Positions 1,092 to 4,274 of a stretch of 10,260 nucleotides of DNA are shown here, in pieces. Every line of letters starts with the position of its first letter. Position 1 is the stretch's first letter. The position numbers were made by a program, and so were the translations under genes. Source of the stretch: Candidatus Aminicenantota bacterium (lineage in GTDB: Bacteria; Acidobacteriota; Aminicenantia; Aminicenantales; JAFGAV01); assembly GCA_016867615.1 (NCBI GenBank), contig VGJG01000030.1, positions 1 through 10,260 on the forward strand, in the 5' to 3' direction. Below the pieces are notes generated by a model. That model was not told the origin of the DNA. It saw only the letters and a program-made list of their open reading frames with translations, and did no database searches.

Positions 1092-1310
1092 ATGAAGGAA
1101 GAAATCCAAAAATCCCTCAATAAGATCCGTCCCGGCCTGCAGGCCGACGGCGGGGACGTCGAGCTCGTGTCCGTGGAGAACGGCCTGGTCAAGGTCAAGC
1201 TCAAGGGCGCCTGCGGCGGATGCCCCATGTCCCAGATGACCCTCAAGATGGGCATCGAGCGCCAGCTCAAGAAGGATGTCCCGGGCGTGACGGAGGTCGT
1301 CTCGGTCTGA
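1092..1310 (+). CDS. NifU C-terminal-domain (Nfu) Fe-S protein
   Basis: A 72-residue protein consisting only of the Nfu domain. Such proteins hold a labile [4Fe-4S] cluster, usually bridging two monomers, and pass it to target apoproteins. Signatures: an N-terminal amphipathic helix beginning KEEIQKSLNKIRPGL, then QADGGDVELV, and the cluster-binding CxxC in ACGGCPMS, followed by an MTLKMGIE helix and a VPGVTEVV strand. It lacks the A-type domain found in long Nfu/NfuA proteins and the IscU-like domain of full NifU. The start is supported by AAGGAG about 9 bases upstream (1079-1084). It is the first gene after a strong promoter and lies 26 bp before the IscS-like gene, so cluster delivery downstream of the IscU scaffold encoded in the same unit is the natural reading. 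Confidence 0.93.
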   Translation: MKEEIQKSLNKIRPGLQADGGDVELVSVENGLVKVKLKGACGGCPMSQMTLKMGIERQLKKDVPGVTEVVSV

Positions 1311-1336: not shown

Positions 1337-2518
1337 ATGAAGCGCGTCTATCTCGACCACATCGCCGCCACGCCCCTCGACCCGAGGGCGCTGGAGGCCA
1401 TGCTGCCCTTTCTCCGCGAGCGGTTCGGGAACCCGCAGAGCATCCATTCTTTCGGCCGGCCCGCTCAGGAGGCCGTGGAGGAAGCCCGGGCGCAGGTCGC
1501 CCGCCTCATCAACGCCTCGGCCGAGGAGATCTTTTTCGTCTCGAGCGGCTCGGAGGCCAACAACTTCGCCCTCAAGGGGCTGGCCCTCGCCCGGCGGGAC
1601 AAGGGACGGCACCTGGTCCTCTCGGCCGTCGAACACCAGTCCGTTCTCCACGCGGCCAAGAGCCTCGAGCGGCAGGGGTTCAAGACGACGCTCGTCGGCG
1701 TCGACCGGGAAGGGCTCGTCGACCCCGAGCGCCTCGCCGCGGCCGTCACCCCCGAGACGGCCCTCGTCTCGGTCCAGCTGGCCAACAACGAAGTGGGCAC
1801 GGTCGAGCCCGTGGCCGAAGTCGCGCGCCTCTGCAGGCCGCTCAGCGTCCCGGTGCACACCGACGCCGTGGCCGCGGCGGGCAGCATCCCCGTCGATGTC
1901 CGCGCCCTGGACGTCGACGCCCTGAGCCTGGCCGGCGACCAGTTCTACGGTCCCAAGGGCAGCGCCGCCCTGTACGTCCGCAAGGGTGCGCGCCTCCTGC
2001 CCCTCATCGACGGAGGCATCCAGGAGGGCGGGCGGCGGGCCGGGACGGAGAACGTGGCCGGGATCGTCGGCCTGGGCCGGGCGGCCGCCCTGGCGGCCGA
2101 GGAGCTCGAGTCCCGGTCGGTCCGGGCGGCGGCGCTCCGCGACCGGCTCATCGACGAGCTGCCCCGCAGGGTCGAGCAGGTGACGCTCACCGGGCACCGG
2201 TCGCGCCGGCTGCCCCATCACGCCAGCTTCTGCGTCGCTTTCGTCGAGGGCGAGGCCATGCTCCTCAACCTCGATCTCAAGGGGTTCGCCGTCTCGAGCG
2301 GTTCGGCCTGCACCTCGCGGGCCCTCAAGGCCTCCCACGTGCTTCTGGCCATGGGCCTCGACCATGCCCTGGCCCAGGGGTCGCTCGTCTTCAGCCTCAT
2401 CGAGGGAACAGCGGCCGGGGACATCGAGTCCCTGCTGGACGTTTTCCCGCCGATCGTTGAGCGGCTGAGGGCCCTGTCCCCCCTGTACACCCAATACCTC
2501 GAGGAGAAGGGGAAATGA
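1337..2518 (+). CDS. IscS/NifS-like class V PLP protein lacking the PLP lysine
   Basis: A 393-residue homologue of cysteine desulfurases, which normally take sulfur from cysteine as an enzyme persulfide and hand it to IscU. Start: ATG at 1337 directly after GGAGGGGGGAG. Conserved parts: YLDHIAATPLDP, FGNPQSIHSFG, GSEANN (71-76), H100 in VEHQSVL, NNEVGT (150-155), H174-T-D176, YGPKG (204-208), RRAGTEN and the mobile loop SSGSACTS with catalytic C325. Three active-site positions differ from E. coli IscS: the HK motif with the Schiff-base lysine is D201-Q202, the ring-contacting Gln after the HxDA motif is A179, and the substrate-carboxylate Arg of GSIRFSLGR is V351 (GSLVFSLIEG). From memory, A. 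fulgidus IscS has comparable replacements and the similar SPLY C-terminus. It overlaps iscU by 4 bp (ATGA), so partnership with IscU is likely. Ordinary desulfurase activity is doubtful. Confidence 0.9.
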   Translation: MKRVYLDHIAATPLDPRALEAMLPFLRERFGNPQSIHSFGRPAQEAVEEARAQVARLINASAEEIFFVSSGSEANNFALKGLALARRDKGRHLVLSAVEHQSVLHAAKSLERQGFKTTLVGVDREGLVDPERLAAAVTPETALVSVQLANNEVGTVEPVAEVARLCRPLSVPVHTDAVAAAGSIPVDVRALDVDALSLAGDQFYGPKGSAALYVRKGARLLPLIDGGIQEGGRRAGTENVAGIVGLGRAAALAAEELESRSVRAAALRDRLIDELPRRVEQVTLTGHRSRRLPHHASFCVAFVEGEAMLLNLDLKGFAVSSGSACTSRALKASHVLLAMGLDHALAQGSLVFSLIEGTAAGDIESLLDVFPPIVERLRALSPLYTQYLEEKGK

Positions 2519-3081
2519 ACTACACCGACAAAGTCATGGACCATTTCCAGAATCCCCGCAACGTGGGCGTCCTCAAGGACGCCGACGGGGTGGGCAAGGT
2601 GGGCAACCCCGTGTGCGGGGACATGATGACCTTTTATATAAAGGTCAAGGACGAGCGGCTGGCGGACATCAAGTTCCAGACCTTCGGCTGCGGGGCGGCC
2701 ATCGCCGTCTCGAGCATCGTCAGCGAGATGGCCCGGGGCAAGCCGCTCGGGGAGGCCATGGAGATCACCAACGAGCGCGTGGCCGAGGAGCTGGGCGGCC
2801 TGCCCAAGAACAAGCTTCACTGCTCCAATCTGGGCGCCGACGCCCTGCACAAGGCCATCGAGGATTACCGCGCCCGCCGGGGAGAAGCCGCGGACGCCAA
2901 GAAAAAGGGGAGCGGCCCGGCGGGGTGCTGCTGCCCGTACTGCGAGGGGCCGATGGAGGGCGCCGAGGGGCTGTGCCGATCCTGCCATATCGAGCTCGAG
3001 GAATGCCCCGTGTGTCACAAGTCCACGAAAGCCGGCGAGGATGCCTGCAGCCACTGCGGAGCGAAGATGCCCCCGGCTTGA
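2515..3081 (+). CDS. iscU: IscU Fe-S scaffold with C-terminal double zinc ribbon
   Basis: Scaffold protein on which Fe-S clusters are built from iron and sulfur. The 188-residue product has two parts. Residues 1 to about 122 are a standard IscU domain: YTDKVMDHFQNPRNVG, C34 and D36 in NPVCGD, C59 in FGCGAA, and H102-C103 in LHCSNLG, i.e. the three cluster cysteines plus the usual Asp and His. After a lysine/glycine linker (about 123-137) comes a cysteine-rich tail of about 50 residues with two CxxC pairs per ribbon: C140/C143 with C154/C157, then C164/C167 with C178/C181, preceded by extra C138 and C139. This reads as a double zinc ribbon; ordinary IscU ends near residue 128. The start overlaps the stop of the IscS-like gene (ATGA, 2515-2518), implying translational coupling. 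The IscU call is secure; the role of the tail is unknown. Confidence 0.94.
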   Translation: MNYTDKVMDHFQNPRNVGVLKDADGVGKVGNPVCGDMMTFYIKVKDERLADIKFQTFGCGAAIAVSSIVSEMARGKPLGEAMEITNERVAEELGGLPKNKLHCSNLGADALHKAIEDYRARRGEAADAKKKGSGPAGCCCPYCEGPMEGAEGLCRSCHIELEECPVCHKSTKAGEDACSHCGAKMPPA

Positions 3082-3138
3082 GCCGCCCGCCGGGGCTCCG
3101 CTGGAGGAGGTCCCCGGAAGGCGACCTGGAACGACGAT

Positions 3139-3372
3139 ATGAAGGCCGATAAAAAGCTCGATTGCTACGGGCTCCTGTGCCCGGTGCCCATCATCCGGAC
3201 GGCCAAGGCCGTCAAAGAGATGAAGGTCGGAGAAATCCTGGAAGTGTCCTCCACGGATGCGGGGATCAGGGAGGACATGCCCGCCTGGTGCCGGACCACC
3301 GGCCAGGAATTCCTCGGCCTGGAGGAGGAGGGCGAGGTCATCAAGGCCTATGTCCGCAAGGCGAGGGAATGA
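3139..3372 (+). CDS. TusA/SirA-family sulfur-carrier protein
   Basis: A 77-residue protein of the TusA/SirA/YedF family, small proteins that carry sulfur as a persulfide on a conserved cysteine. The family motif CPxP is present as LLCPVPIIR with the carrier C14, preceded by D8-C9-Y-G. The remainder follows the family beta-alpha-beta-alpha-beta-beta layout: KAVKEMKVGEILEV, a STDAGIREDMPAWC helix, and a GEVIKAYVRK end strand. The family is used in tRNA thiolation, molybdenum cofactor formation and dissimilatory sulfur metabolism, so the exact role cannot be read from sequence. It lies 57 bp after iscU and overlaps nadA by ATGA (3369-3372). Its place next to an IscS-like protein without the PLP lysine makes it a candidate sulfur donor or acceptor here (inference). 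The start has only a weak GGA about 8 bases upstream, but no other in-frame start fits the family. Confidence 0.9.
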   Translation: MKADKKLDCYGLLCPVPIIRTAKAVKEMKVGEILEVSSTDAGIREDMPAWCRTTGQEFLGLEEEGEVIKAYVRKARE

Positions 3373-4274
3373 GGTACGAAGAGCTGAGGGAGCGCCTGGC
3401 CCGTTTGAAGGCGGCGCGGCGGGCCGTCATCCTGGCCCACAACTATCAGGCGGGGCCCGTCCAGGACATCGCCGATTTCGTCGGCGATTCCCTGGAGCTC
3501 AGCCGCAAGGCGGCCGCCGTCGAAGCGGAGACGATCGTCTTCTGCGGGGTCCATTTCATGGCCGAGACGGCGGCCATCCTCGCCCCGAGCAAGACCGTCC
3601 TCCTCCCGGACGCCGGGGCCGGCTGTCCCATGGCCGACATGATCACCGCCGACGAGCTGCGCCGCTGGAAGGAGCGCCACCCCGGGCGGAAGGTCGTCTG
3701 TTACATCAACACCTCGGCCGAGGTCAAGGCCGAGAGCGACGTGTGCTGCACGTCGGCCAACGCCGTGCGCGTCGTGGAATCGCTCCCGGACGAGGAGGTC
3801 CTGTTCGTCCCCGACAAGAACCTGGCGGCCTTCGTCGCCCGGAACAGCCGCAAGAAGATCATCGCCTGGGACGGGTACTGCTACGTCCACCACCATATCT
3901 ACCCCGCCGACGTCGCCGCCGGGCGAAGGGAGCACCCCGAGGCCGAGGTGTGGGCCCATCCCGAGTGCCGGCCCGAGGTCATCGACCTGGCCGACAAAGC
4001 CCTGTCCACCGGCCAGATGATCGCCGAAGCCCGCCGCACCGCGCGGAGGGAGGTCGTGGTCGCCACCGAGGCCGGGATCACCTACCGGCTGAAAAAGGAG
4101 AACCCCGGCAAGGAATTCCACCCCGTCAAGCACACCGCGCTGTGCGCGAACATGAAAAAAACAACACTGCCGAAGGTCCTGGCCGCCCTGGAGGGGGGCG
4201 GGACGCGGATCACGGTCCCCGAGGACATCCGCCTTCGGGCGCTGGGCGCCATCGAGCAGATGATACGAATTTAA
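3369..4274 (+). CDS. nadA: Quinolinate synthase A
   Basis: Condenses iminoaspartate with dihydroxyacetone phosphate to quinolinate, the second step of de novo NAD synthesis; a cytosolic [4Fe-4S] enzyme. The 301-residue length fits the short form of the family. Signatures: LAHNYQ (22-27), DSLELSRKAA, FCGVHFMAET, the three cluster cysteines C86 (AGCPMAD), C171 (GYCYVHHHI) and C259 (ALCANMKKTTL) at the spacing known for NadA, and EVKAESDVCCTSANA. The start is the ATG overlapping the upstream stop (ATGA, 3369-3372); upstream in-frame sequence does not resemble NadA. No nadB or nadC is in the window, so iminoaspartate must come from an oxidase or dehydrogenase encoded elsewhere. Co-occurrence with Fe-S assembly genes fits its oxygen-labile cluster; B. 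subtilis also places a NifS-like gene next to nad genes. Confidence 0.97.
   Translation: MRYEELRERLARLKAARRAVILAHNYQAGPVQDIADFVGDSLELSRKAAAVEAETIVFCGVHFMAETAAILAPSKTVLLPDAGAGCPMADMITADELRRWKERHPGRKVVCYINTSAEVKAESDVCCTSANAVRVVESLPDEEVLFVPDKNLAAFVARNSRKKIIAWDGYCYVHHHIYPADVAAGRREHPEAEVWAHPECRPEVIDLADKALSTGQMIAEARRTARREVVVATEAGITYRLKKENPGKEFHPVKHTALCANMKKTTLPKVLAALEGGGTRITVPEDIRLRALGAIEQMIRI

Follow-up and report, generated by a model that had tools for sequence, protein, structure and literature searches.

Iron–sulfur cluster assembly by the ISC pathway is taught as starting with cysteine desulfuration. An IscS without its catalytic lysine is nevertheless known from two archaea. The A. fulgidus protein (PDB 4eb5, 4eb7 and 4hvk; D-to-K variant 4r5f) is reported to be inactive since its lysine is Asp, and to give a Cys ligand to the [2Fe-2S] cluster of IscU (PMC7585200); a figure legend elsewhere shows 4EB5 with PLP (PMC9769115). 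M. acetivorans IscS1, described as lacking the catalytic lysine, is paired with IscU1 (PMC7585200). In E. coli, the IscS variants K206A and Q183E are reported to have no activity, R354K is fully active and K206A retains some PLP binding (PMC9978102). IscU and TusA bind different sites on E. coli IscS, the cysteines lying ~4 angstrom apart in the TusA complex, and IscS without residues 376-404 fails to bind IscU, according to the structural account of these complexes (PMC2854127). Anaerobic E. coli without iscS is reported to build IscU clusters from H2S (PMC13015791).

The window analysed here, a 10,260-nucleotide stretch of DNA from a Candidatus Aminicenantota bacterium, encodes an IscS-like protein of 393 amino acids (1337..2518, + strand; PF00266, E 3e-65). 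The protein has the class V aminotransferase fold and an IscS-type Cys loop (GSAC at residues 322-325), and its best PDB sequence matches are cysteine desulfurases. Scores against NCBIfam models fall below the cut-offs: 471.8 of 530.75 bits for NifS (TIGR03402), 355.7 of 643.2 for TIGR02006 and 368.6 of 548 for NF010611. The initial annotation had placed the gene at these positions and reported the loss of three catalytic residues, which sequence and translation confirm. Q202 (CAG, 1940-1942) replaces the Schiff-base Lys, A179 (GCC, 1871-1873) the PLP Gln after H-x-D-A, and V351 (GTC, 2387-2389) the substrate Arg of the S-I-R-F-S motif, so the protein lacks the Lys, Gln and Arg of a group I cysteine desulfurase. 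That list of losses was incomplete. The canonical S-x-H-K motif reads A199-G-D201-Q202-F-Y-G-P-K-G here, with the Ser and His also replaced, by A199 and by D201 (GAC, 1937-1939; the D201 and Q202 codons together occupy 1937..1942, + strand). We take the A199 and D201 sites to be PLP-phosphate ligands in canonical enzymes; in group I desulfurases the Gln presumably contacts PLP and the Arg presumably binds the substrate carboxylate. No other lysine fills the Schiff-base position: aligned with a solved lysine-bearing enzyme, the protein shows no gap in the motif, and K207 pairs with the usual YGPKG lysine. C325, the mobile Cys (TGC, 2309-2311), is kept, and so are H100 and D176, as had been noted at the outset; we assume that the last two sites touch PLP in active enzymes. 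The reading frame is intact and ends in a C-terminal SPLY tail; its stop codon overlaps the iscU start (ATGA, 2515-2518). Substitutions in a series of solved cysteine desulfurase variants (PDB 9wep to 9wfy) include Ala→Ile, Gln→Pro and Arg→Val, and two of the variant residues agree with the window protein (I9 and V351).

A single scan of the named-genome collection, using a DNA pattern that spanned residues 201-212 and excluded Lys, returned at least 117 stretches; among the matches listed, an IscS-like ORF was present at 117/117 loci. Because the pattern covered residues 201-212 only, the Gln, Arg and Cys states were not selected for. The 95 unique loci among the matches listed fall in Nitrospirota (38), Chloroflexota (23), Bacillota (5) and other bacteria (Myxococcota, Thermodesulfobacteriota, Elusimicrobiota, Omnitrophota, Deferribacterota, Aminicenantes and others), and also in archaea (Bathyarchaeota, Thermoplasmatota, Methanobacteriota, Hermodarchaeota and Promethearchaeota). 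For residue counts, 303 loci gave 276 IscS-like ORFs, 243 after removal of 33 duplicates, and 240 once three rows with no letter at position 202 were left out. Of these rows, 78 carry Lys and 162 do not; one of the latter, an N-interrupted fragment (L219), was left out of class counts. The lysine-bearing rows do not describe lysine-bearing IscS in general, because their sources are the window's order and 36 genomes picked for holding a lysine-less copy.

Gln and Arg are both lost in 151 of the 152 lysine-less rows readable at both sites, and both kept in 76/77 lysine-bearing rows. The three substitutions, whose co-occurrence the initial annotation had raised as a question, thus go together. 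Wherever lysine-less rows have a letter, the mobile Cys is present in 154/154, D176 in 160/160 and H100 in 156/158, and the Arg site is V, L, Q, I, E, T or A in 152/153, which would leave the carboxylate of an amino acid without its partner. The sole exception to the joint loss, L044 (genome G006, 2972-4246), keeps Arg; it has an S-A-H-T-L motif, with H100 changed to D and Gln to His, and IscU adjoins it. This locus is perhaps an independent, younger loss. Two genomes hold two different lysine-less IscS each (L333 and L327 in G092; L330 and L334 in G071), and G071 also has a lysine-bearing IscS in which the Gln is Ile. Six loci (L042, L043, L178/L203, L181, L294 and L304) have frames of ~1130-1180 amino acids that join a lysine-bearing IscS domain to a larger unassigned part.

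A tree of 100 rows, computed with the trait columns removed, resolves two lysine-less clades. Clade A is the window type (motif D/N/H-Q-F-Y-G-P-K-G) and is almost wholly bacterial in the sample analysed; clade B (support 99/95) is the A. fulgidus type (motif S-S-N-D-I-Y-G-P-K-G, PDB 4eb5), and the window lies outside it. A. fulgidus IscS had been named for comparison in the initial annotation. The archaeal protein has the same triple loss by alignment (K to D, Q to A and R to L), together with the IscS fold, the mobile Cys and an IscU partner, yet its motif is S-S-N-D-I-Y where the window has A-G-D-Q-F-Y. The nearest lysine-bearing rows (L185 for A; L202, L187 and L192 for B) are all IscU-linked, which suggests that an IscU-bound enzyme lost its chemistry. 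The lysine-bearing solved enzyme 9wep is weakly nested in clade A (94/75). Two separate losses of the lysine are favoured, because the best tree has two clades and a constraint that unites A and B to the exclusion of every other row has an AU p of 0.029. This is weakened by the p of 0.155 obtained with 9wep and L044 left free, so that the AU tests do not firmly reject a single loss. The tree program marked the window row, among others, for unusual composition, and reported L048 and L049 as long branches. Pair tests on the tree (TusA or IscU against Lys loss) have only 2-3 independent contrasts and cannot reach significance.

The gene that overlaps iscS encodes an IscU/NifU_N scaffold (2515..3081, + strand; residues 3-123; PF01592, E 1e-48; TIGR03419, 193.3 bits, above cut-off) with a cysteine-rich C-terminal tail (2886-3081) that resembles a double zinc ribbon (DZR, E 5.7e-4, below its cut-off). 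Tails with at least two CxxC occur in 53/134 complete IscU frames beside lysine-less IscS, and at 14 loci outside the window's order iscU is followed by a distinct small ORF that resembles a zinc ribbon. Counting IscU as adjacent when it lay within 600 bases on the same strand by match coordinates, we found it beside 137/149 lysine-less loci versus 6/78 lysine-bearing loci from the same order or genomes. By class, the link holds for 125/131 assessable A loci, 11/17 B loci and L044 (1/1 other). The best matches to L185 in one Bacillota class served as controls: all 30 are lysine-bearing and 29/30 are IscU-linked. A tail of the SPL(Y/W/F) type ends 84/123 IscU-linked clade A rows versus 5/77 lysine-bearing rows; it is a weak marker of IscU binding, because only 5/11 IscU-linked clade B rows and 1/6 IscU-linked lysine-bearing rows have it. 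One contig (L039, G031, of the same order) carries a B-type lysine-less IscS with IscU ~5 kb from an active-type lysine-bearing IscS.

SufB/D gave no match in 49/59 genomes of the order (29/39 good genomes), and 14/14 controls were positive. The remaining 10/59 genomes carry a SUFBD match, as do G069, G093 and G094, so a rule that lysine-less genomes never have SUF is rejected. In 16/39 good genomes of the order there is no SufB/D match and a single NifU_N match directly follows a clade A iscS. The Lys position is readable in 15 of these 16 genomes (unreadable in G054) and is never Lys; it was read in the linked copy in 14 and, for G009, in another fragment (L261), because the linked copy there had been removed as a duplicate. 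Neither the metagenome-assembled genome (MAG) that holds the window nor its same-genus relative has a SufB/D match, and the only NifU_N match in the window MAG is the IscU just described.

Downstream of iscU lies a TusA-family sulfur carrier with a CPVP motif (3139..3372, + strand; PF01206, E 2.1e-23), followed by nadA, for quinolinate synthase (3369..4274, + strand; NF006878, 416.4 bits). NadA is a 4Fe-4S client. An Nfu-type Fe–S carrier (NifU C-terminal domain; 1092..1310, + strand; PF01106, E 1.3e-30) precedes iscS. Among window-clade loci of the order, Nfu is upstream in 42/42 assessable cases and nadA downstream in 17/17. Beyond these genes, the window encodes alanine racemase, rubrerythrin-like and ferritin-like proteins, a membrane protease-like protein with CBS domains (weak matches), endonuclease III, a radical-SAM protein, archease and RtcB.

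Clustering the neighbours of the 95 named loci, with representatives identified by Pfam, gave IscU at 64, TusA-family proteins at 57, an Rrf2 regulator at 33 and DsrE-family proteins at 21; the carrier Cys motif is kept in 57/57 of the clustered TusA. We scored linkage as TusA or DsrE within 2 kb of iscS, at loci where both flanks span 1300 bases or more. TusA lies beside 41/46 clade A loci of other phyla, 9/13 clade B loci and 8/36 clade A loci of the window's order, and beside 0/61 lysine-bearing loci. The corresponding counts for DsrE are 12/46, 6/13, 0/36 and 0/61. The 30 Bacillota controls, taken from 79 genomes (25 with both flanks long enough), have TusA at none, DsrE at none and Rrf2 at 29; L185 itself is counted both among them and among the 61. 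Altogether, none of 90 lysine-bearing iscS loci, roughly 30 of which are linked to IscU, has tusA beside it. TusA is present at four of five lysine-less Bacillota loci, the other being unassessable. TusA is upstream in 31/35 Nitrospirota loci that have it and mostly upstream in B, and is downstream in Chloroflexota (15/15) and Bacillota (4/4); the linkage therefore occurs in more than one gene order. In CP070693.1 (G069) the order is iscS-iscU-dsrE-tusA. What is new here is TusA, sometimes with DsrE, beside a lysine-less iscS. Among the matches listed from the open-access PMC literature, we saw nothing that describes the bacterial clade, the loss of all three residues together across phyla, or tusA/dsrE as neighbours.

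By analogy with A. fulgidus IscS and the E. coli mutants, we infer that the window protein lacks desulfurase activity; that it is not a cysteine desulfurase and works with IscU is, in our judgement, highly likely. The triple co-loss across phyla, the kept mobile Cys and the linkage to iscU and tusA/dsrE, all of them features of sequence and gene order, support the reading of an IscU partner or persulfide relay with which the initial annotation had closed. We think it probable that the protein is a conserved pseudo-desulfurase that partners IscU and is fed by sulfide or by carrier persulfide. The IscS fold would no longer release sulfur from cysteine and would still dock IscU, placing Cys325 where the cluster is built, to ligate the cluster, to accept persulfide or to do both. 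Sulfur would come from sulfide or from TusA persulfide, with DsrE in some lineages, and not via the protein's own PLP. Both this ligand or relay role of Cys325 and the sulfur source are what we infer for the family. As a tentative suggestion, sulfur borne by TusA/DsrE may be a main source in tusA-linked lineages, with sulfide otherwise.

A simpler model would cast the protein as a ligand donor only, as for A. fulgidus IscS. Cys325 would supply the fourth ligand and shape the IscU site, free sulfide would enter directly, and the TusA linkage would reflect other sulfur needs (tRNA, Moco). The reported structure and inactivity of the A. fulgidus IscS-IscU pair (PMC7585200, PMC9769115) and the anaerobic use of H2S by E. 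coli IscU (PMC13015791) speak for this model, as does the window's own order, in which no TusA was found at the 28 assessable loci other than the eight above. It leaves unexplained why tusA/dsrE should sit beside lysine-less iscS but beside 0/90 lysine-bearing ones, and we regard it as rather unlikely.

Cysteine-derived sulfur could also reach IscU in trans, because 28 of the 36 genomes searched with a canonical query (E 1e-15) hold a lysine-bearing IscS-type or a SufS-type protein: a lysine-bearing paralogue would pass persulfide to Cys325, or form mixed dimers, and the sulfur would go on to IscU. An IscS-type paralogue is present in 24/36 genomes (IscU-linked in 6/24) and a SufS-type protein only in 4/36. 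For the window MAG, where a canonical IscS or SufS elsewhere in the genome had been in question, there is a contig-end N-terminal fragment of a canonical-looking NifS, which fits such a relay. This MAG also encodes other class V aminotransferase-fold proteins, one of them PvdN/SufS-like but scoring below the family cut-offs (the contigs concerned, for these and the NifS fragment, are C240, C147 and C180). Against a relay in trans, this search found neither type in 8/36 genomes, which are drafts except for G069 and G074. A more sensitive PF00266 search covered seven of the eight, all but G092; G074 contains a second NifS-like gene as an N-interrupted fragment and G082 a SufS-like protein well below the family cut-off, so these three count with reservations. 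In G069 (CP070693.1, titled a chromosome, from Dehalococcoidia), neither search found a lysine-bearing IscS or SufS: an aminotransferase of the BhcA/PhnW kind ranks second among the PF00266 matches, four weaker matches (E 5.5e-6 or worse) have no assignment, and there is one SufB-like match. Supply in trans seems unlikely to us. The eight genomes, mostly drafts and with the reservations on G074, G082 and G092, also speak against the view that an active desulfurase occurs wherever a lysine-less IscS does.

Residual or altered chemistry, in which PLP held without a Schiff base would still desulfurate cysteine or another substrate, is much less likely again. Because D176 and H100 are conserved, PLP or some other ligand may still occupy the pocket, and both the PLP in the 4EB5 figure legend (PMC9769115) and the partial PLP binding of E. 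coli K206A (PMC9978102) are compatible with this. A changed Arg is not necessarily fatal by itself, because R354K keeps full activity in E. coli. The reported inactivity of K206A and of Q183E (PMC9978102) weighs the other way, as do the joint loss of Lys, Gln and Arg and the change of the Arg site in 152/153 rows.

The altered residues define a conserved family, far from chance. Among the 120 best homologues listed, query included, residue 202 is Q in 119 and R in 1, and every one of the 120 carries Ala179, Cys325 and either Val or Ile at position 351. The nearest named homologue, from Candidatus Aminicenantes, is 83% identical, and a same-genus genome has a homologue at 81% identity with IscU directly downstream. 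Comparison with relatives from the order, including one of the same genus, gave dN/dS of about 0.20, 0.13 and 0.18 for three of the four (the fourth is saturated at synonymous sites), so the window gene is under purifying selection; with the ATGA overlap and the relatives, this bears out the description of the gene as intact, coupled to iscU and not a decaying copy. A completeness of 82.7% and a contamination of 5.65% speak for decay, sequencing error or a chimaera in this one MAG (2.44 Mb, 542 contigs), but these can be dismissed with near certainty, since independent relatives share the changes, which excludes a one-codon sequencing error, and the dN/dS values and the same-genus copy with its adjoining IscU tell against the rest.

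If lysine-less IscS does work with IscU across many phyla, what IscS does as platform and donor of Cys would be separable from its chemistry, and the name 'cysteine desulfurase' would be wrong at scale for lysine-less IscS proteins. Sulfide- or TusA-fed assembly, possibly near to pre-oxygen cluster making, would become testable in E. coli. A bolder possibility, which we hold to be on the unlikely side, is an ISC class without cysteine desulfuration, in which the lysine-less IscS would be a hub where TusA hands persulfide sulfur to IscU. TusA would be charged via DsrE or directly from sulfide or polysulfide, and the flow would be the reverse of that from IscS to TusA in E. coli. Some anaerobes (CP070693.1) would then have no other IscS-family protein, and IscU would be the sole recognised scaffold in the 16/39 good genomes of the order.

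Compared with described systems, the window protein has the fold, H100, D176, Cys loop and SPL-type tail in common with group I E. coli IscS/NifS, but the E. coli residues that we take to be numbered Lys206, Gln183, Ser203 and His205, and the substrate Arg, are all replaced. For M. acetivorans IscS1, the main text of the report describes four neighbour genes of no known function, and the word TusA is absent from it (PMC7585200). SMS (SmsBC) is described as Fe–S assembly able to use sulfide, without an identified desulfurase (PMC12192291); its scaffold is unrelated to the window's IscU. MIS, the minimal ISC system of Barras and colleagues, is described as including a cysteine desulfurase (PMC12192291), and the window IscS, judged by its residues only, is without those needed; in common with MIS, the window has a minimal IscS-IscU pair, encoded by the overlapping genes at 1337-3081.
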